Assembly: GCA_020431405.1 (NCBI GenBank) | Contig: JAGQIK010000237.1 | Coordinates: forward strand, 1 to 53,442 | From: Myxococcales bacterium | GTDB lineage: Bacteria > Myxococcota_A > Polyangia > GCA-2747355 | Direction of reading: 5' to 3' | Length of the DNA: 53,442 nucleotides | Part shown: positions 1,968 through 33,779 of the stretch, in pieces | How positions within the stretch are numbered: position 1 is the first letter of the stretch | How the letters are laid out: the number at the start of each line of letters is the position of its first letter | Made by a program: the position numbers and the translations under genes | The notes under the pieces: generated by a model | Seen by the model: the letters and a program-made list of their open reading frames with translations, nothing else | Database searches by the model: none | Told to the model about the DNA's origin: nothing

Positions 1968-4900
1968 ATGTCCTCGGCGCCGGCCCGCTCCATCGAGCTC
2001 GAGACGCTCGAAGCCACACTCGCCAGCGCCCAGTCGCGCCCGCCCGAAGAGCGTGCGGCGTTGCACCTGCGAGCAGCGGAGCTGTGGCTCGCGCGCGCCG
2101 ACGCCGAACCGCACGGCCACACCGACAACGGCTCCACGCGCCAGCGCGCGCTCGAGCACCTGTGGGCTGCCTGGGGTGCGCAGCCGGGCGACAGCGACAT
2201 CGCGGCGCTGCTGCTCGAGCTGACCGACGACGACGACCCGAGCCGCGCCGAGATCTTCGAGCGCAACGCGGCCGACGAGGAAGAGCCCGACGCGCGCGCC
2301 GACCTGCGCCTCGCGGCGGCCGAGCTGCGCGCGGCGAGCGGAGAAGACGAGCGCGCCGGCGAGCTGTGTCTAGCCGCGCTGGGCGACGTGGCTTCGAGCG
2401 AGCGCGGCTTCGAGCGGCGCGTGCGGCGGGCGCTGCGGATCATCGGCGAAACCAGCCAGGCGATCGACCCGGACATGCTCGACGCGCTGGCCGCGCGCGG
2501 CACACCGGCGCGCGACCCGCTCGCCGATCTGGCGCGGCGGCGCGAGGCCAAACGCGACGACCAAGGCGCCTTCGACGCCTGGCGGGCGGTGCTCATCGCG
2601 GCGCCCGGCCATCGCACCGCGCTTTCGGCCTGCGCACGCAGGCTGCGCGACGACGGCGCCTACGCCGAGCTCGCCGATCTGCTCGAACGCAGCGCGCCGC
2701 TCTCCGAGGCGCGCAGGCGGCGCGAGCTGTGGTGCGAGCTCGCAGCGCTGTGTCAGGGCGAGCTCGCCGACCCGCAGCGCGCGGCGACCGCGTGGCTCGA
2801 GGCCTGGAACGGCGGCGCGGTGGAACGCGCACCCGCCGAGCTCAAGCGCATCTACGCCGAAGGCGAGGATTGGGCGGCCTACGTCAAGGTGCTCGAGCGC
2901 CAGGCGCGCGGCGCCATGGCCCGTGACGAGAAGCTCGACGTCTATCGCGAGCTGGCCACGCTGCAGCGCGAGGTGCTCGAGGACGCCGGCGCCGCCGCCA
3001 CCACCTACGCGCGCATCTTACAGCTCGCTCCGGACGACCTCGAGGCGCTGCGCGCGCGCGTCGAGCTGCTCGAGGCCGATGGCGATCACAACGAAGCGCT
3101 GCTGCTGCGCGCGCTGCGGCGCTATCTGCGACACGAGCGCGGCCCGTCGCGCCAGGCGCTGGTCGGCCGGGTGGCGCGCATCGAGCTCGCACGCGGCCAG
3201 TACGAGGCGGTGGCGCGGCTGCTGTCGGATCTCGATCTCGGCGACGATTCGGCGCGCGCGCTGCTCGGCGAAGTGCGCGAGGCGCTCGGCTCGGCGCCGC
3301 CGCCGCTGACCGTCGAGAGCGACGCCAAGCTGCGCAACCTGCGCCGTCGCGTCGACACGCTGCTGATCGACAGCGCCGCCCTCGATCACGATCCCGAGCA
3401 GGCGCTCGCGCTGGCCAAACAGGCCGAAGCGCGCGGCGAGAGCCGGGTCGCCGCCGACGTCTACCGGCGGCTGCTCGCGCGCCAGCCGGATCTGGAGGCG
3501 GCGCGCGAGGCGCTGCAAGCGCTCGAGCACGAGGACGAGGCGCCAGCGAGCGCCTCGCAGGCGCTGGCGCGCGAGGCCGAGCAGGTCGCGACACAAGACG
3601 CCGCGCGCGCTGTGCGTATGCTGGTGCGCGCCGCCAACGTCGTGCGCCACGCGCAAGCCCACGGCGAGAACGCCGCCGGCGCACACGAAGACGACAAGAG
3701 CGAGGACAAGGCCGAGGGCGAGGCCGACGCGCCAGCTGGCGCCGACGCGCAGAAGAAGGCCGAGATCGAGGCGCTGCTCGACCGCGCCGTCGAGCTCTGC
3801 CCCCATGGTGACAACGCCGAGCTGCGACTGCTCGAGAGCGCGCTGCGCCAGGCCGGGCTGCTGTGGCGTTTGGCCGATCTGCTGGCCGATGCGGCCGAGC
3901 ACGAAGCGCGCGGCTACAAGCGGCGCGCGCTGCTGCGGGCGCTCGCCGAGCTGCTCGAAGACGAGCTCGGCGAGGCGCAGCGCGCGGTCGGCGTGCTCGA
4001 GCAGGCCTTCGACCTCGATCGCAGCGACCGCGTGCTGGCGCAAGACATCTGCGACCTGCACCGCCGCCTCGACAACAAGGCGGCGCTGGCGCAGATCCTC
4101 GAAGAGCTGCTCGCCGAGACGACCGAGGTCGAACGCGACGCGATGCTCGAGGAGCTCGCCGCGCTCTACGCCGAAGAGCTCGACGACCCCGCGGGCGCGC
4201 TGCGTCACTACGGCGAGCTGCTCGAGCGCACCCCCGACCACAGCGCGGCGCTTCACTACTGCCGCCAGCACGACGAGCGGGTCGGCGACCATCGCGCCGT
4301 GGCCGTGATGTTGGGCCGCGCAGCGGAGGCCAAGGGCGATCCGATGGAGCGCGCGGAGCTTCATCGCGAGATTGCGAGCATCGCCGAGAACGTGCTCGGC
4401 GACCTCGATTTCGCGATCCTGCAGTGGCGCAAGGTCGTCGAGCTGTTGCCGGCGGACACGGCGCCGCGCGCCGAGGTCAAGCGGCTGCTGCGCGCGGCGG
4501 GGCGGGCGCAGGAGGTCGAGGCCGTGCTGCTCTCGGAGGTCTCGCGCGCCAGCACCGAAGAGAAAATCCCGCTCTACCTCGAGCTGTCGGAGCTGGCGCT
4601 CAAGGGCCAGCGCAACCGACGCGCCGCGGCCGCCTACCTGCGCAACGCGATGCAGCTCGCGCCGGAAAACCGCGACGTGATCGAGCGGCTCGAGACACTC
4701 TACGAGGGTATGGGCCAGTGGCGCGAGCTCGCCGCGACGTTGACGCGCCACGCCGAGATCGAAAAGGAGACCACCGACAAGGTCTCGCACCTGCTGCGTG
4801 CCGCCCAGGTGCTCGCCGCCAACCTCGGCCGCGAGGAGGAGGCTCTCGCGATCTGCCGGCGCGTGCGCGAGCTGGACACCAGCGACCGGCGCGCGGCCAA

Positions 4901-24246: not shown

Positions 24247-26619
24247 TCAAAGCGAGATCAGGTGCGGCGACCAGTCGCGTGGCGTGCCGTTGCCCGACTG
24301 ATCGAAGAAGTCGTCGCCGAAGCAGCGCGCGCCGCCGGTGGTCAGCGCGCACGTGTGTGCCTCGCCGGCGACGACGTCTTGCACGCCGGTCAACATCAGA
24401 TCGGTGGGCGGCTGATTGGTGCTCGTCAGCGCCCCGCCCGACTGCAGCGCGCGGTTGTCGCCCCAGCAGTAGAGCTTGGCCGACGCGACGGCGCAGGAGT
24501 GGCGGCCACCAACGGCGACCGCGGTGGCGTTTACCAGTGCGCTGCCTTGGATCACCACCGGCCGGATGTCGAAGCTCGACACGCTGCCGTTGGCGAGCTG
24601 CCCTTCTTGCCGACGCCCCCAGCACTGCACAGCGCCCATGTTGTCGATGGCGCAGCCGTGCGAGGGGCCAACGCTCACCGCCTTGAACGTCTGCGTGCCG
24701 CCGAGCCGTCGCGCGAGGTGGCTGCCAGCGTCTACCGTGCCGTCGCCGAGCTGGCCCGCGTCGTTGCCGCCCCAGCAGTAGAGCGCGCCGCCGGCGGCGA
24801 TGCCGCAGGACGTATCGCCGCCCGCGCTGACCGCGATGGCGTCGCCTAGCGCAGCTTGCGCGAGCCCGAAGACACCGACGCCAGCGAAGCCGAGCTGGCC
24901 GCTGCTGTTGTCTCCCCAGCAGTAGACGCCCGCCGGCAGCGCCAGGTACTTCAGCAGCGCGCAGGTATGGGCGCGACCGCCGTCGACGCCGCCAGCGCTC
25001 TGCCAGTCGCTCGAGCCGGTGGCGGTGTAGAAGACGTAGTTGGACGCGCTGCGCGCCGTGCCGTCGAGCTGGCCGCCGTCGCCGCGCCCTGCGCAGATGA
25101 CACCGCCCGTGCTAACCGCGCAGCTGTGCTCGTAGCCGAGGCCGAATTGGGCGGGAAAGCCCATGCCGGCATAGGGGCGTGGCGAGGCGACGAGCCTGTC
25201 GCTCTGCGCGGCGGCTGACTGCCCCTGCGCGTTGAGCCCCCAGCACCGTACGTCGTTCGTGCCGCTCGACTTGGCGCAGACGTGGTAGCCACCGCTGGCC
25301 AACTGGTCGAGCTTCTTGCTCGGCGCCTGCGAAAGCGCGACGCGCGCCACGGTGCCGTCGCCGACCTGACCGAAGGTGTTGCGCCCCCAACAGGTGATCG
25401 TGGCGCCCGTCACGGCGCAGGTGTTGTTGGCGCCCGCGAAGACGCGCTCTTGCTGCGCGAGCGGCGTGACCGGCGCTTTGGTGTAGGCGCGGTCGGCTGT
25501 GATGCCGCGGCCGAGCTGGCCGTAGCGATCGTCGCCCCAGCAGACCACCGCTCCGCTGCCCTTCAAGACGGCGCAGCTGTGCGCCACGCCGACGCTGACG
25601 TCGCTGACCGAGTCGGAGAATGCCGACGTGGTGAGCATTGGCGTGCTCACGCCGATTCCGGCGAGCTGGCCGCGGTCGTTGGCGCCCCAACAGGTAACGT
25701 TCTTGTCGTGCGCGGCGCAGGTGTGATCGCCGTGGCTGGCGATCTGCCGGGCGTTGGCCGCAGCGCTGACGAGGTTGAGCGGATTGCTGGTCGCTGGCGT
25801 GGCGCTGCCGAGCCTGAAGTCTTGCGCGTTGCCCCAGCAGTAGACCGAGCTGTTGATCTTGGCGCAGCAGTGCGAGGTGCCGCACGAGATCAGCGTGGTG
25901 TTGTTGCTGCCCGGCAGTGGCACGGGCGTGCTGGTCCCCATGCTCCCAGGACCGAGCTGGCCAGAGTCGCCACGCCCCCAGCAGTAGATGTTGGCGCTGG
26001 TCGCGCTGGTGGTGACGGCACAAACGAAGCCGTCTCCGCAGCCGACGAGGTCGCTGTCCTTGGCATTGCTGACGAAGCCCGGCTTGCCTGGCTGCGCGGG
26101 CGTCGCGCCGAGCTGCCCGTCGTCGTTGGCGCCCCAGCACAGCACCTTGCCGTCGGCGTCGACGGCGCAGGTGTTGAGCGCGTTGGCGCACAGGTCGCGC
26201 ACGGGCTCTTTGAGCCCGCTGAGCTTCTGCGGTGAACCGCCTGGCGCGCTGCTGACGCCGCATTGGCCGCGGTCGTTGTCGCCCCAGCAGTAGACACGCC
26301 CGTCGGCGAGCGCGCAGGTGTGGCGCTCGCCGTAGACGATCTTGGCGACGCTGGTCGGCGGCTGAACCATGGCGTCGAGCACGCCATCGCTGGTCGTGTC
26401 GCCAACGCCGATGTCGCGCGCGGTATCGGTGATGCCGACGTCGCCGTCGAACACGCCGATGTCGCCGTCGCGTGTGGTGTCGCCGACGCCGATGTCTGCA
26501 TCAGCGTCGATGCTTGGGTGTGCGTCGGAAGCGTAGAAGCTCGCGATGGCGTCGCACCCACATGTGAGAAGCGCGACGACACCGCATAGCGAGAGGAGGG
26601 TATAGAACCGGCGAACCAT
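24247..26619 (-). CDS. RCC1-repeat beta-propeller lipoprotein
   Basis: 790 residues from ATG 26619 (an in-frame TTG lies just before it). The lipobox is LLTCGC. Residues ~32-85 are an acidic repeat linker (DIGVGDTT, DGDIGVFDGDV). Then come 14 RCC1-type units, each with an H-T/S-C-A-L...Y-C-W-G-x-N/D-x-x-G-Q-L pattern and a paired cysteine, enough for two seven-bladed propellers. One unit has CAG and the last has CFG instead of CWG. Bacterial RCC1 proteins of this Cys-paired type are exported, and the cysteines probably form one disulfide per blade. Ligand unknown. It converges with the preceding lipoprotein gene, 15 bp apart. Confidence 0.85.
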   Translation of the reverse strand: MVRRFYTLLSLCGVVALLTCGCDAIASFYASDAHPSIDADADIGVGDTTRDGDIGVFDGDVGITDTARDIGVGDTTSDGVLDAMVQPPTSVAKIVYGERHTCALADGRVYCWGDNDRGQCGVSSAPGGSPQKLSGLKEPVRDLCANALNTCAVDADGKVLCWGANDDGQLGATPAQPGKPGFVSNAKDSDLVGCGDGFVCAVTTSATSANIYCWGRGDSGQLGPGSMGTSTPVPLPGSNNTTLISCGTSHCCAKINSSVYCWGNAQDFRLGSATPATSNPLNLVSAAANARQIASHGDHTCAAHDKNVTCWGANDRGQLAGIGVSTPMLTTSAFSDSVSDVSVGVAHSCAVLKGSGAVVCWGDDRYGQLGRGITADRAYTKAPVTPLAQQERVFAGANNTCAVTGATITCWGRNTFGQVGDGTVARVALSQAPSKKLDQLASGGYHVCAKSSGTNDVRCWGLNAQGQSAAAQSDRLVASPRPYAGMGFPAQFGLGYEHSCAVSTGGVICAGRGDGGQLDGTARSASNYVFYTATGSSDWQSAGGVDGGRAHTCALLKYLALPAGVYCWGDNSSGQLGFAGVGVFGLAQAALGDAIAVSAGGDTSCGIAAGGALYCWGGNDAGQLGDGTVDAGSHLARRLGGTQTFKAVSVGPSHGCAIDNMGAVQCWGRRQEGQLANGSVSSFDIRPVVIQGSALVNATAVAVGGRHSCAVASAKLYCWGDNRALQSGGALTSTNQPPTDLMLTGVQDVVAGEAHTCALTTGGARCFGDDFFDQSGNGTPRDWSPHLISL

Positions 26620-26670
26620 CAACTTGGAGTCAACGCACTGGGCTCACCGCCTATTTCGGCCGCGTCAGCG

Positions 26671-28069: not shown

Positions 28070-29104
28070 GTGTCGCTGCTGTGGAGATACGTGCTCTCGG
28101 GGCTGCTGCCGCGCCTGGCGCTCTCGCTGCTGGCGCTCTGTGGGCTCTACCTGGTCTTCGATCTGGGCGACCAAGGGCGGCGGGCGGCGGCGCAGCTCGG
28201 CTGGGCCGTGGTGCTCGAGGCGACGCTGCTGAGGCTGCCGTTGATCGCGGTTCAGGTGCTGCCGGCGGCCCTGCTCGCGGCCGCGGCGCTGTGGATCGTG
28301 GGCCTGCGGCGCGGCGGCGAGCTCGAGGCGCTGCGCGCGGCGGGGCTACGACCGCGGCAGCTGGCGATGCCGCTGCTGGCGGTGGGGCTGGTGGCGGGCG
28401 TGTCGAGCTTCTCCGTGCTCGAGCTGCTCGTGCCACGCAGCGAGCAGGCTGCCGACGTGCTGCTCGGCGCGCATCGCTCGCCTTTGACGGGCCTCGGACA
28501 AGCGGGGGCGTGGCTGCGCCAAGGGCGCTGGCTGCTCGAGCGACAGACGGACGGCTCGGTGCTGGCGCTCGAGCTCGACGCGCGCGGTCGAGCGCTGCGG
28601 CGCGTGCGCGGGCGCGTGGCGGCGTCGGGTGACGCCCTCGTCGGTGCGCGCGTGATCGCGCTCGGCGAGCGCATGGGGCGGCGGCGCGAGGTGGCGCGCT
28701 TGCCGCTACCCGGCTTGCGCGAGGCGCTCGCGCTGTGGCGTGCGCCGCGCGCCGAGGCGCTGTCGTGGCGCGAGCTGGCGGCGCTCGTCTCGGCGCGTGC
28801 ACGCGCCGGGCAAGGGCGGCCCGCTGAGGTGCTGGTGCTGCACGCCAAGCTGATCTACCCGCTCGTCAACGTCGTGCTGGCGCTGTTCGCCGTGGGCCTT
28901 CTGATCGGGACGCGGCGGCGCGGCTCGGGCGCAGAGCTGTGGCGCGCAGCCGGGGCACTGCTGGCGACGTGGGCGTTGCTGGCGGCGAGCTGGTCGCTCG
29001 CCCGCGCGGGTTTGCTCTCGGCGGCGGCGGCGAGCTGGGGGGCGCTTTTCGCCGCGATCACGTGCGCCGCGGCGTTCGCGCTGCGTCGGGGCAGCAAGGG
29101 CTGA
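28070..29104 (+). CDS. LptF/LptG-family permease
   Basis: 344 residues from a GTG. The YjgP/YjgQ topology is visible: three N-terminal helices (LALSLLALCGLYLVF, LPLIAVQVLPAALLAAAALWIV, LAMPLLAVGLVAGVSSFSVLELLV), a periplasmic beta-jellyroll-like segment (~130-230), and three C-terminal helices. The cytoplasmic loop LRRGGELEALRAAGLRP is a hallmark of LptF/LptG, which with LptB2 extracts LPS from the inner membrane toward LptC/A. Only one of the pair is here. LptF versus LptG cannot be told from motifs. The pseudo-ATPase gene starts 38 bp after its stop. Confidence 0.85.
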   Translation: MSLLWRYVLSGLLPRLALSLLALCGLYLVFDLGDQGRRAAAQLGWAVVLEATLLRLPLIAVQVLPAALLAAAALWIVGLRRGGELEALRAAGLRPRQLAMPLLAVGLVAGVSSFSVLELLVPRSEQAADVLLGAHRSPLTGLGQAGAWLRQGRWLLERQTDGSVLALELDARGRALRRVRGRVAASGDALVGARVIALGERMGRRREVARLPLPGLREALALWRAPRAEALSWRELAALVSARARAGQGRPAEVLVLHAKLIYPLVNVVLALFAVGLLIGTRRRGSGAELWRAAGALLATWALLAASWSLARAGLLSAAAASWGALFAAITCAAAFALRRGSKG

Positions 29105-29142
29105 AAGCGAGCCGGATCGCTGCTAACGTTCCTCGTTTCTTT

Positions 29143-32034
29143 ATGTCCGACGAGCGCGGCGACAAACCCAGTCAAGAGCCCGAGGGGCGCGGCGAGCGCG
29201 AGCGTCGCCCGCGCGCCAGCGGCACGCTCGAGATCACGCGCATCCCGCCGAAGACGTACGCGCGACCGCAGCGAAGCGGCGGCAGCAAGCTGCGCTTCGT
29301 CACCAAGCTCCCCGCCGCCGTTCACACGACCGCCAAGAGCAAGGCGCCCGCGCAGCCGACGCCGACGCCGCAGAGCGGCTACAAGAAGGGACCGCTGACG
29401 GGACCCACGCGCGTGATGGTCAACACGCCGCCGACGCCGCGCGCCAAGCGCGTCAGCACCGTGGTGCCCAAGCCCGCGACCGTGCGTATGCGCCTGCCCG
29501 CGGCGTTGTCGAAGGCGTCTCGCACGACGGAGGTCCAACCCGAGCCCGAGCCCGAGCCGCCTACGCCCGCGCCCGAGGCCGAGGTGCAAGCGCGTGCGGA
29601 GACGCCGGTCGAAGCGCCGGCGCCGGTCGAAACGCCCGCGCCTGCCGAAACCGAAGCCGAAGCCGAAGCCGAAGCCGAAACCGAAGCCGAGGCCGAAACC
29701 GAAGCCGAAACCGAAGCCGAAACCGAAACCGAAACCGAAACCGCTGCCAGCGTCGCGGAGGCCGAGGAGGCCGAAGCGACAGCGCCGCCCGCCGATGCCG
29801 AAGGCATCGGGGCAGCCGAAACCGAGACCGAAGCCGAAGCCGAGACCGAAACCGAAACCGAAGCCAAGGCCTCCGATAGCGCACCGAACCTCGTCGCCGC
29901 GGTCGCCGCCGCGGCGGCCGCGAGGGCGACGGGGCGACGGGGGCGTCGGGCGCGGCGACGGCGCAGTCGTCCCACGACGTCCGAGCAGATGCTGTTCGTC
30001 GAGGCGTCGCTGCCGCCGGTGGAAGAGACGCTGCTGGTTGGCGACGCGCGTGCACCGCGCGTGCCCAGCGCGGAGATCGACGCGCTGCTCGACGCGCGTG
30101 CTGCGCGCGCGGTGCCGCTCGACGACGCGCCGCCGACCGTCGAGCAGCCGTCGCGCGAGGCGCGCGTCGACGACGACACGGAGCCCGAGGCCGCAGCCGA
30201 AGCGCCCGTATCCGAGCAAACGCCCGAGCCGACAGCGCCGGCGGAGCCGCGCGCCGAAGAGCCCGAACCGCCGGCGCCCGCGCCGGCAGCCGAGCCACCG
30301 CACGAAGAACCGCTCGAAGGGCCGCCAGAGCCCCCTCCAGGCAGACCCAAGTCGAAAGCGATCGTCCCACGAGACCCGCTCTCGCGCTCGTCGGTGAGCG
30401 GCCAGTTCGAGATCGCCGAGCTGCTCGCCAAGGTCGACGGCTCGCCGGTGGGCGCCGACGAGCAAGCGACGAGCACGCGCGCGCACAGCAGCAGCGGCAT
30501 CGAGCACGTCCTGCTCGCCATCGACAACCTCAGCTGCGGCTCGTGCGCGCTGCGCGCCGAGCGCGCCATCGCGCGTGCGCCCGGCGTGATCTCGGTGTCG
30601 GTGAACCTGCTGCTCGGCAGCGCCGTGGTCGAGCTCGATCACAGCCTCGCCGATATCGACGCCGTGCTCGCCGAGCTGGCGTCGGAGGGCTATCGCGGGC
30701 GTGTCGTCGATGACGCCGCCCAGGGGCTCGAGCTGCCGCGCGCCCGGCTCGCGCTGCGCGTGGCGCTCGCCTGGGCCGGCGCGCTGGCGTTGCTCGGCCT
30801 GTCTCTGCTCTCGCCGCTGCCGCTGCTGGCCGCCCTGCTCGGCAGCGCCGTCGTGCTGCTTCCGGGCTGGCCGATCATCGGCGACGCGCTCGGCCGCGCG
30901 CGACGCATCGCCCTCACCGGCAACGCGCTCAAGACCATCGGCGCGCTCGGTGCCTGCGGCGTCGGCTGGTATGTCTACGGCCGCGCGGGAGGCGCCGCCG
31001 CGCCGGCGACCGTGACGCTGCTCTTCGAAGCGGGCGCCGCCATCATCGCTGGCGCGCTGCTCTCGCAGCTGCTCGAACGACGCGCAGCGCAGCGCGCGCA
31101 GCTCGACATGCTGGCGCTCATCGCGTCCGAGCCGACACGCGGTCCGCTGCTTCGCGAAGCGCACGGCAGCAAGGCCAGCCGCCAGCGCATCGTCGACGCC
31201 GTGCTGCGCGTGCTCGTGCCGCTGTCGCTGGTGCTGGCCGCGCTGGTGCTCTTCGCCCGACAGAGCGCCAAGCACGCCGTGATGCCCGATCTGCTGCTGC
31301 CCTCGCTGGCGATGCTGGCGGCGATCGCGCCGGCGACCCTCGGTGTCGCCGTCGCCCTCGCCTCCGTCGCCGGCATCCAGCGCGGCGCCGCCAGCGGCGT
31401 GCTTTTTCGCGGTGCCGAGAGCGTCGAACGGCTCGCCGACGCGCAGACGCTCGCCCTGAGCGACAGCGTGGTCGCCGAAAACGGTGTCGCCAAGCGCGGG
31501 GTCAAACGGCTCAGCAGCGCGCTGCGCGCACTGGGCGTCGAGCAGCTGCTGCTCTCGTCGCTCTCCGAGCCAGCGGCGCGCAAGATCGCGCGCGGCGCGG
31601 CGCTCGACAACGTGCTCGCGGCGCTGCGTCCGGGACGACGCGTCAGCGAGCTCAACAGCGCGCGAGGTGACGGCCAGCTCGCCTTGCTCGGCGATCCCAA
31701 ACGCGACGCCGATCTGCTCGCCGCCGCGGACGTCGGGGTCGTGCTCGGCAGCAGCCAGGAGGCGGGGCGCAGCGACGCCCCCGCCGGCCTGTGGCTTGCC
31801 CGCGGTCGGCTGGACGACCTCGCGCTGGCCATCGAGACCGCTCGGGCCACGCGCCGCGTCGCCAGCCAGAACGCCGCCATCGCCATCGCCTGGCACCTGA
31901 TGCTGCTCGGCGCGGCAGCGCTCGGCGTGCTCGGCCCCCACGCCGTGCTGATTGCAGCAGGGGCGTCGACACTGTTATCCTCGACGCTCGCAGCGAATGC
32001 GCGGCGTCTGCGCGGTTCTCGCTCAGCACCCTGA
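29143..32034 (+). CDS. Degenerate P1B-type ATPase with HMA domain (pseudo-transporter)
   Basis: 963 residues from ATG 29143. Residues 1-~445 are disordered: basic/Pro-rich, then Ala/Thr-Glu repeats (168-199 and 225-240), an Arg cluster (GRRGRRARRRRSR) and Pro/Glu-rich stretches. Residues ~455-525 are an HMA metal-binding domain with C465-x2-C468 in NLSCGSC. Then follow membrane helices and a P-type ATPase skeleton aligned to CopA: IAPATLGVAVALASVAGIQRG instead of the CPC helix (A729-P-A731), ALSDSVVAENG (772-) where DKTGT should be, GDPKRD (850-855) instead of GDGxND, then ADVGVVLGSS and two final helices. The nucleotide-binding domain is missing. Pumping by phospho-Asp chemistry is therefore not expected; metal sensing or scaffolding is inferred. 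Confidence 0.8.
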   Translation: MSDERGDKPSQEPEGRGERERRPRASGTLEITRIPPKTYARPQRSGGSKLRFVTKLPAAVHTTAKSKAPAQPTPTPQSGYKKGPLTGPTRVMVNTPPTPRAKRVSTVVPKPATVRMRLPAALSKASRTTEVQPEPEPEPPTPAPEAEVQARAETPVEAPAPVETPAPAETEAEAEAEAETEAEAETEAETEAETETETETAASVAEAEEAEATAPPADAEGIGAAETETEAEAETETETEAKASDSAPNLVAAVAAAAAARATGRRGRRARRRRSRPTTSEQMLFVEASLPPVEETLLVGDARAPRVPSAEIDALLDARAARAVPLDDAPPTVEQPSREARVDDDTEPEAAAEAPVSEQTPEPTAPAEPRAEEPEPPAPAPAAEPPHEEPLEGPPEPPPGRPKSKAIVPRDPLSRSSVSGQFEIAELLAKVDGSPVGADEQATSTRAHSSSGIEHVLLAIDNLSCGSCALRAERAIARAPGVISVSVNLLLGSAVVELDHSLADIDAVLAELASEGYRGRVVDDAAQGLELPRARLALRVALAWAGALALLGLSLLSPLPLLAALLGSAVVLLPGWPIIGDALGRARRIALTGNALKTIGALGACGVGWYVYGRAGGAAAPATVTLLFEAGAAIIAGALLSQLLERRAAQRAQLDMLALIASEPTRGPLLREAHGSKASRQRIVDAVLRVLVPLSLVLAALVLFARQSAKHAVMPDLLLPSLAMLAAIAPATLGVAVALASVAGIQRGAASGVLFRGAESVERLADAQTLALSDSVVAENGVAKRGVKRLSSALRALGVEQLLLSSLSEPAARKIARGAALDNVLAALRPGRRVSELNSARGDGQLALLGDPKRDADLLAAADVGVVLGSSQEAGRSDAPAGLWLARGRLDDLALAIETARATRRVASQNAAIAIAWHLMLLGAAALGVLGPHAVLIAAGASTLLSSTLAANARRLRGSRSAP
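29644..29862 (+). repeat. In-frame hexanucleotide repeat arrays
   Basis: Two arrays of a 6-bp unit (GCCGAA/ACCGAA, some ending GAG): 16 units at 29644-29739 and 8 units at 29815-29862. Each unit adds Ala-Glu or Thr-Glu to the pseudo-ATPase tail. Unit gain or loss by slippage keeps the frame, so only tail length changes. Confidence 0.85.
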
Positions 32035-32045
32035 CGGAGCTCGGG

Positions 32046-33779
32046 TTGCCCTTCGTTCTAGCCATTCACAGTCCCGACGGGGTCCTACGCGATGTCACCC
32101 TCAAAGATGGAGAGACCTCCATCGGTCGCGACCCGTCGAGCCAGCTCGTCCTCGAAGGCCGCGGCGTTTCGCGCCGCCACGCCAAGTTCGTCGTCACCGG
32201 CGATCAGCTGACCATCGTCGATCTCGGCTCGACCTATGGCACGCGCGTCAATGACGTGCCGACCATGCGCCGCGAGCTCAGCCCCGGTGATCGACTGACC
32301 GTCGGCATGCACCAGCTCGAGATCAAGCTCGCCACCGTCGGCTCGAGCTTCGACATCTCGGAGCTGGCAGAGCGCGGGTCGCCGCCCTACTTCAGCGAGG
32401 ACGTGACGCAGGATCCGCAGTTCGCGGAGCTTGGCCAGACGCCCGCTGTCGGCGAGGACGACGAAGACAACCGCAAGACGCTGCAGCTCGATCGCTCGGC
32501 GATCAACTTCGTGCTCGACAACCCCGACGAGCAAGGCCAGGCGGTCAAGGTGCTCTCCAAGCGTCAGAGCGATCTGATGCAGGCAGTGCAGCGCCTCGAG
32601 GCGACCACCGGCAACCTCGAAGAGTTCAAGACCCCCACCGCCGAGCTGCAGCAGGCCGCCGACTACCAGGCGCTGCTGCTGATGTACAAGGTCAGCGCAG
32701 AGCTCGCCGCCGCCACCGACCTCGACAGCTTCCTCGCGCCCACCGCCGATCTCGTGATGGAGGCGGTCAGCGCCAACACCGTCGTGGTGCTGCTGCTCGA
32801 CGGCGACGAGCTCGTGCCGCGTGTGATTCGCCACCGCGGCGCGCTGCATCCGGGCGAGGTGCCCGTCAGCCGCGGCATCCTCGATCTCGTGCTCGCCGAG
32901 GGCGAGACCGTCGTCAGCAACGACGTCGGTCACGACGAGCGCATCCAGACCGGCCACAGCCTCACGCTCTACAACATCCGCTCGGTCGTCGCCGCGCCGC
33001 TGATGGTGCGCGGCGAGGTCAAGGGTGTGCTGTATCTCAATCGCTCGGGGCCGATCCCGTTCTCGAGCGCCGACGGCGACCTCGTCGCCGCGCTCGGCTC
33101 GCTGATGGCGAGCGGCATCGAGCAGTCGCGCCTCAAAGAGGACTACGCTTCCGAGACGCTGCGCAGGCGCGCGCTCGAGCGCTTTCATCCGCCCGAGGTG
33201 GTCGACCGCATCTTCCGCACCGGCGGACAGGTCGGCATGCTCGAGGAGCATCAGGCCACCGCGCTGGTCTGCGACATCAGCGGCTTTCACGCGCTCACCG
33301 AGCGGCTCGGCCCGCGCGAGATCGCGCAGATCCTCCACGAGTACTACGAGACGATCTACGAGAAGGTCTTCGACAACGGCGGCAGCTTGGTCAAGCTGCA
33401 CGACGGCTGGGCGCTGGCGCTGTTCGGCGCGCCCGAGTCCTCCGATCGCGACGCGGTCTGGGCGGTCGAAGCAGGGCTCGCGCTGTGCACCGAGTTCAGC
33501 TCGCTCAAGATGCTGTGGCCCGAAGCCAACACGCTGAGCCTCTGCTGCGCGCTCGACTCGGGCTCCGTGGTCGCTGGCCTTGTCGGGTCCGTCGATCGTC
33601 ACGAGTACGTGGCGCTCGGCTCGCCGATCGTCACCACCGCGGCGGTGGCCGCGCAGACCAACGAGACGGCGTTGATCGTCACCGAGCGCACGTGGGCCGA
33701 GCTGCCGCAGATGCGCTACCGCGTCAAAGAAGTCGACCTGCTCCCCGACCAGCGCATCTACCAGCTCACCGAAGCCTAG
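32046..33779 (+). CDS. FHA-GAF-class III cyclase-like protein, cyclase site degenerate
   Basis: 577 residues from TTG 32046, chosen because GGAG sits 6 nt upstream and the FHA fold starts at once; the frame is open further up inside the ATPase gene. FHA (1-95) keeps G27-R28 and S42-R-R-H45, the phosphothreonine-binding core. GAF spans ~205-360. A class III adenylate/guanylate cyclase domain spans ~395-577 and keeps the first metal Asp (D410 in CDISGF). The second metal site reads KLHDGW, where an ungapped alignment puts Gly454 at the Asp. The region YVALGSPIVTTAAVAA has Ser526, Val529 and Ala533 where base-recognition Asp, transition-state Asn and Arg normally lie. Probably an inactive cyclase used as a regulator; it could also be a divergent active form. 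Confidence 0.8.
   Translation: MPFVLAIHSPDGVLRDVTLKDGETSIGRDPSSQLVLEGRGVSRRHAKFVVTGDQLTIVDLGSTYGTRVNDVPTMRRELSPGDRLTVGMHQLEIKLATVGSSFDISELAERGSPPYFSEDVTQDPQFAELGQTPAVGEDDEDNRKTLQLDRSAINFVLDNPDEQGQAVKVLSKRQSDLMQAVQRLEATTGNLEEFKTPTAELQQAADYQALLLMYKVSAELAAATDLDSFLAPTADLVMEAVSANTVVVLLLDGDELVPRVIRHRGALHPGEVPVSRGILDLVLAEGETVVSNDVGHDERIQTGHSLTLYNIRSVVAAPLMVRGEVKGVLYLNRSGPIPFSSADGDLVAALGSLMASGIEQSRLKEDYASETLRRRALERFHPPEVVDRIFRTGGQVGMLEEHQATALVCDISGFHALTERLGPREIAQILHEYYETIYEKVFDNGGSLVKLHDGWALALFGAPESSDRDAVWAVEAGLALCTEFSSLKMLWPEANTLSLCCALDSGSVVAGLVGSVDRHEYVALGSPIVTTAAVAAQTNETALIVTERTWAELPQMRYRVKEVDLLPDQRIYQLTEA

Follow-up and report, generated by a model that had tools for sequence, protein, structure and literature searches.

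The window, i.e., the whole stretch of 53,442 nucleotides of Myxococcales DNA analysed here (contig JAGQIK010000237.1), encodes on its forward strand an open reading frame of 963 amino acids (29143-32034; ATG at 29143, TGA at 32032-32034, no internal stops), flanked by two co-directional genes. The intergenic gaps are just 38 nt on the upstream and 11 nt on the downstream side, and this narrow spacing suggests a single transcript for the LptF/G-like permease gene, the pseudo-ATPase gene and the gene for an FHA-domain protein. No canonical ATPase gene was seen beside the pseudo-ATPase gene, and the scan of proteins from the window identified none with a role in metal homeostasis. A 791-aa protein made up largely of RCC1-type repeats is encoded at 24250-26622 (- strand). 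An open frame of 1028 aa antisense to the pseudo-ATPase (28855-31941, - strand) was rejected as a gene; its coding score is low and we regard it as a by-product of GC-rich codons. The features of the locus are as follows:

28070-29104, + strand: LptF/LptG-family permease gene directly upstream of the pseudo-ATPase (Pfam LptF_LptG, E 2.4e-34); as left member of the ancestral gene pair, it lies next to the FHA gene in three relatives that lack the pseudo-ATPase.
29143-32034, + strand: pseudo-P1B-ATPase gene, 963 aa (profile matches and alignment with canonical P1B ATPases).
29143-30489, + strand: low-complexity N-terminal tail, probably disordered, residues 1-449 (composition, no Pfam domain, weak coding signal).
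29644-29743, + strand: 12-bp tandem repeat inside the tail region, which codes for a tract of the AETEAETE type.
30514-30693, + strand: HMA domain with intact CGSC (C465, C468), residues 458-517 (Pfam HMA).
30715-32016, + strand: eight membrane helices (MA, MB, TM1-6), residues 525-958, with what remains of the P domain lying between TM4 and TM5 (hydropathy, AlphaFold model, Z 33.4 to CopA 7r0g).
31132-31152, + strand: A-domain excision junction (PTRGP / LL), where about 85 aa including TGE are missing (alignment with canonical P1B ATPases).
31327-31335, + strand: APA at the position of the CPC transport site in TM4 (alignment).
31459-31497, + strand: SDSVV at the DKTGT position and N-domain excision junction, residues 773-785 (alignment, S773-G850 spacing).
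31690-31707, + strand: GDPKRD at the GDGxND position, both Asp kept (alignment).
32046-33779, + strand: FHA-GAF-class III cyclase-like gene directly downstream, with a degenerate cyclase site; a possible signalling partner (Pfam, order-wide alignment, synteny).

It is close to certain that the protein is a derivative of the P1B (CopA-type) metal ATPases, a pseudo-pump. HMA domains with CxxC are common in P1B ATPases, albeit not universal, and the HMA domain at residues 458-517 was matched above the Pfam cut-off (E 8.7e-10) with CGSC present, as had been read from the sequence by eye. The Pfam E1-E2_ATPase profile matched with its C-terminal part only (positions 100-179 of 181; residues 669-749, E 9.9e-8). 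The NCBIfam heavy-metal ATPase model TIGR01525 yielded 101.4 bits against a cut-off of 346, and TIGR01511 66.6 bits against a cut-off of 397. The core (residues 450-963) was aligned by MAFFT with 36 canonical P1B ATPases retrieved in the class and phylum searches, and the alignment bore out the original prediction that the frame follows CopA-type ATPases from the HMA domain to the last helices. In this alignment, 72 columns are near-invariant among the canonical sequences; the pseudo-ATPase has kept 27 of them, whereas 21 are deleted and 24 substituted.

The substitutions and deletions fall on the catalytic machinery. As already noticed in the first inspection, the phospho-acceptor motif DKTGT is replaced by S773-D-S-V-V and the transport-site motif in TM4, which in P1B-type ATPases reads CPC or else SPC, CPH or TPC, by A729-P-A731. 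TGD is changed to S-S806-L807, the lysine of PxDK to R833, and the copper ligands of TM5 and TM6 are replaced as well (YN by WH, MxxSS by S-LLSS), which leaves the CGSC of the HMA domain (C465, C468) as the sole canonical metal site. The replacement of the GDGxND hinge by G850-D-P-K-R-D855 was likewise part of the original prediction, but is less radical than it implied: both aspartates stay and only the central G and N are gone. Moreover, D774 is the immediate neighbour of the phospho-acceptor position, at which MAFFT pairs S773 with the phospho-Asp. With D774 close by and the hinge aspartates remaining, the site has not been erased.

Two entire blocks are missing. The actuator (A) domain with its TGE motif, about 85 aa between TM2 and TM3, is absent and PTRGP is joined to LLREAHGSKASRQ. 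The other missing block starts immediately past the place of DKTGT and reaches as far as the latter half of the P domain, so that SDSVVAENGVA runs straight into KRGVKRLSSALRALG; the distance between S773 and G850 is 77 residues, compared with a median of 198 between DKTGT and GDGxND in canonical forms, and the N domain is thus absent. Both deletions are in frame and both lie at domain borders. The loss of the N domain had been recognised from the outset, whereas that of the A domain had been overlooked. By what is established for the family, a Post-Albers cycle is impossible without KTGT, the A domain and the N domain; judged by these lost parts, the protein is predicted to be unable to pump. 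Catalytic residues have been lost and fold and frame are kept, which is one mark of a pseudoenzyme, a maintained but catalytically dead relative of an enzyme family.

The predicted structure points to the same family. The AlphaFold model of the core (pLDDT 88.6, pTM 0.87) comprises the HMA domain, eight membrane helices and a Rossmann-like remnant of the P domain; the eight helices are also predicted by hydropathy, in agreement with the earlier claim that the membrane part is preserved. Among solved structures, copper P1B ATPases resemble the model most: CopA 7r0g (Z 33.4, 2.8 Å over 435 residues) and ATP7B 7xuk (Z 30.1, 506 residues aligned). The superposition on CopA, which had been proposed as a check, thus recovered a P-type fold and not an unrelated one. 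The model should be taken as compatibility with this fold and not as independent proof, its confidence being partly borrowed from relatives, because the other rows of the 59-row input alignment were canonical and N-domain-less ATPases with intact motifs and a single-sequence control fold of the core was uninformative (pLDDT 43.9).

The core is preceded by a tail rich in A, E, P and T (residues 1-449), which contains 43 Thr and no Cys. The original prediction of an added 450-residue disordered tail holds as far as a low-complexity, probably disordered stretch is concerned, and this stretch is located at the N terminus. No Pfam domain was found in residues 1-449, and a search of the tail against its own genome produced only low-complexity or simple-repeat matches. 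The coding score of the tail, 0.12 bits per codon, is weaker than that of the core, and no other part of the frame is less certain to be coding.

No orthologue was found in the available genomes of the genus (one), family (three) or order (four). None was seen either among the matches opened from 318 genomes of the class, a 379-genome sample of the phylum, plasmids and two genome-collection scans, searches in which only part of each genome's candidates was scored, so that a very divergent orthologue might have escaped. The matches opened were exclusively canonical ATPases or N-domain-less ones with DKTGT. Barring frames cut by contig ends, the best matches opened from the class were canonical pumps with CPC (in a few cases SPC or TPC), DKTGT and GDGxND. 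An orthologue carrying DKTGT and an N domain, which according to the original prediction would signify recent local decay, was not found in the genomes searched, nor was any other orthologue. A junction query spanning TM2 to the P domain, designed to pick up relatives devoid of the A domain, was run against 310 class genomes; most of the listed matches start at the A-domain junction and few cross it. Of the crossing matches that were opened, one (G000:C114) proved to be a canonical CopA truncated by a contig end, and three apparently DKTGT-less forms (L113, L158 and L169) were dismissed, as the locus was cut or the frame interrupted. No branch of the phylogenetic tree is longer than that of the pseudo-ATPase (1.50; median 0.33), for which there is no well-supported sister. 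Its identity to the nearest canonical sequences reaches up to 34% over the retained columns, and those of its own genome are no nearer than those of other families.

Counterparts of the FHA-GAF-cyclase-like gene, with 50-59% identity, are present in each of the order's three other genomes, where they invariably reside directly behind the LptF/G-like permease gene. Since the two genes are adjacent there without an ATPase in between, the pseudo-ATPase gene is, on synteny, a lineage-specific insertion into the conserved LptF/G-FHA gene pair, or arose within it. The residues of the FHA phosphopeptide site (R, S, R, H, T) are intact in 4/4 relatives. The cyclase domain of the same protein looks like a conserved pseudo-cyclase, because the VNxAxR residues are gone in 4/4 relatives, two of which have also lost the second metal Asp.

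Is the gene maintained, or is it a pump in decay? A copper ATPase of recent acquisition or duplication, now without function and drifting, its frame open by chance in a GC-rich genome, would account for the restriction of the gene to one genome, its absence from the syntenic site in the three relatives and the very long tree branch. Furthermore, stops are rare in GC-rich DNA, as the 1028-aa frame on the opposite strand illustrates. However, by a codon model built from neighbouring genes the core reaches 0.50 bits per codon when read in its own frame versus 0.15 or less in any other, and its GC content by codon position (0.79/0.54/0.89) resembles that of neighbouring genes, GC3 of the HMA domain being 0.93. 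Under neutral substitution about 14 stops would be expected for the observed branch and 7 for half of it, and none is present. Simulated neutral drift of a canonical gene yielded a mean of 5.7 stops once identity had fallen to 50% and of 8.2 once it had fallen to 35%, and no run to either level was stop-free, whereas some runs to 70% identity were; the simulation leaves out indels and is therefore conservative. It argues for constraint on the reading frame, though it is no substitute for dN/dS. The in-frame position of both deletions at domain borders and the retention of the HMA fold with its CxxC also speak against drift, and we consider a decaying pump quite unlikely. The original prediction of a maintained protein thus has indirect support from the open frame, the gene-like codon bias and the several stops expected under drift: the pseudo-ATPase is probably maintained as a non-pumping protein.

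The best explanation, to which we assign a probability of roughly 40%, is that of a non-catalytic membrane protein, whose HMA domain binds a soft metal and which acts as a sensor or scaffold, possibly together with the downstream FHA protein. In this lineage, a P1B ATPase gene of the Cu+ type would have come to lie between the LptF/G and FHA genes, by entry or by duplication. The inserted ATPase would then have been reduced by in-frame excision of the A and N domains and by loss of the phospho-acceptor, dephosphorylation, nucleotide and transport-site motifs, with the HMA CxxC, the eight membrane helices, the Rossmann core of the P domain and an open, gene-like frame being kept. In the cell, the HMA domain would most likely still take Cu+, or else a different soft metal, from a chaperone. 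What is left of the membrane part and the P domain would serve as a scaffold on which the HMA domain and the long acidic, Thr-rich tail dock in a metal-dependent manner, and the docked protein would report or buffer metal at the membrane. Going one step further, and as a separate guess, phospho-threonines of the tail could be read by the FHA protein, whose gene follows after 11 nt; the combined proposal, a membrane metal receptor made from a pump without A and N domains, whose phosphorylated Thr-rich tail is read by the co-encoded FHA-GAF-pseudocyclase, we regard as unlikely. For active pumps comparable ideas exist. In LpCopA the metal-binding domain has been proposed to be a sensor relieving an autoinhibitory tail and not a delivery site (PMC11970713), and the termini of P1B pumps have been discussed as metal sensors, with a possible role as 'transceptor' (PMC10654040).

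Other roles deserve weighing against a metal sensor or scaffold. The pseudo-ATPase might instead be a regulatory partner of an active pump, pairing with the CopA of its own genome or competing for the copper chaperone via its HMA domain, and thereby tune export. The retained HMA and complete membrane domain would suit such a partner, and the genome does encode several canonical P1B ATPases, including the CopA on C114; this account is nonetheless rather unlikely, with no canonical ATPase gene seen next door and the nearest canonical sequences of the genome being no closer to the pseudo-ATPase than those of other families. Equally doubtful is a membrane anchor without any metal role, in which the membrane and P-domain remnants tether the acidic tail for neighbouring envelope or FHA proteins. 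Although the loss of all transport-site residues (CPC, YN, MxxSS) and the company of a permease and an FHA protein, without metal genes, would be in line with it, the HMA domain with CGSC is the best preserved part, which is unexpected if metal binding were irrelevant. The presence of all eight predicted helices might further suggest a passive pore, through which the motorless membrane domain lets metal ions pass downhill, but the ligands of the CopA pathway are replaced (APA, WH, S-LLSS) and an unregulated pore would be harmful, which makes it very improbable. The observation of a real and unusual pseudo-pump is firm; its reading as a metal sensor is a reasonable inference.

P-type ATPases are textbook machines, and it is customary to regard their cytosolic domains and the membrane part as an inseparable whole. 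A protein without A domain, N domain and catalytic motifs that nevertheless retains metal-binding head and membrane domain in an intact, gene-like frame would show that the membrane part of a pump is reusable without its motor, and would offer a natural construct on which to test whether HMA domains act as sensors and not as delivery sites. Within the open-access literature, in which most subscription journals are not represented, we found no account of a P1B pseudo-pump from bacteria. With the P1B-1 Cu+-ATPases (CopA, ATP7A/B), the pseudo-ATPase shares the HMA domain, a membrane domain of eight helices with MA and MB among them, and the P-domain Rossmann core. It differs from them in lacking the A domain, the N domain, CPC, DKTGT, TGE, TGD and GDGxND, and in possessing the 449-aa tail.

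Similar in one of these losses are three N-domain-less P1B ATPases from gut metagenome-assembled genomes (MAGs), met in the second genome-collection scan:

L104, Oscillospiraceae MAG, 2260-3915: N-domain-less P1B ATPase, 552 aa.
L105, Prevotella MAG, 2968-4845: N-domain-less P1B ATPase, 626 aa.
L187, same Prevotella genome as L105 (two paralogues): ZntA-like N-domain-less P1B ATPase, 568 aa.

All three lack the N domain at the same place, with 81-95 residues between DKTGT and GDGxND versus 77 in the pseudo-ATPase and a median of 198. However, they keep the A domain with TGE as well as CPC, DKTGT and GDGxND, all of which the pseudo-ATPase has lost, and are not its orthologues; they may be active pumps. 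Since L104, L105 and L187 are devoid of the N domain yet have intact motifs, N-domain loss has occurred elsewhere too, with the catalytic motifs kept there. The frame adjoining the Oscillospiraceae ATPase gene (L104, 3881-4900) encodes an N-terminal HMA-like CRSC motif ahead of membrane helices and, by eye, resembles proteins of SafE/CcdA type.

Among eukaryotic proteins, human TMEM94/ERMA has a P-type-like fold without TGES, and one study detected no ATPase activity (PMC12134183), a reading contested in a further report (PMC13322241). Unlike the pseudo-ATPase, it keeps A-, P- and N-like domains and ten helices, and no HMA domain has been reported for it. The apicomplexan guanylate cyclases are fused to a P4-ATPase-like domain, which is degenerate in PfGCbeta (PMC6592433), and they share with our locus the coupling of a P-type-like membrane module to a cyclase. 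In apicomplexans this is a single fused protein of the P4 type, whereas here the two modules are encoded by separate adjacent genes, the membrane module is of the P1B type and the cyclase is apparently inactive.
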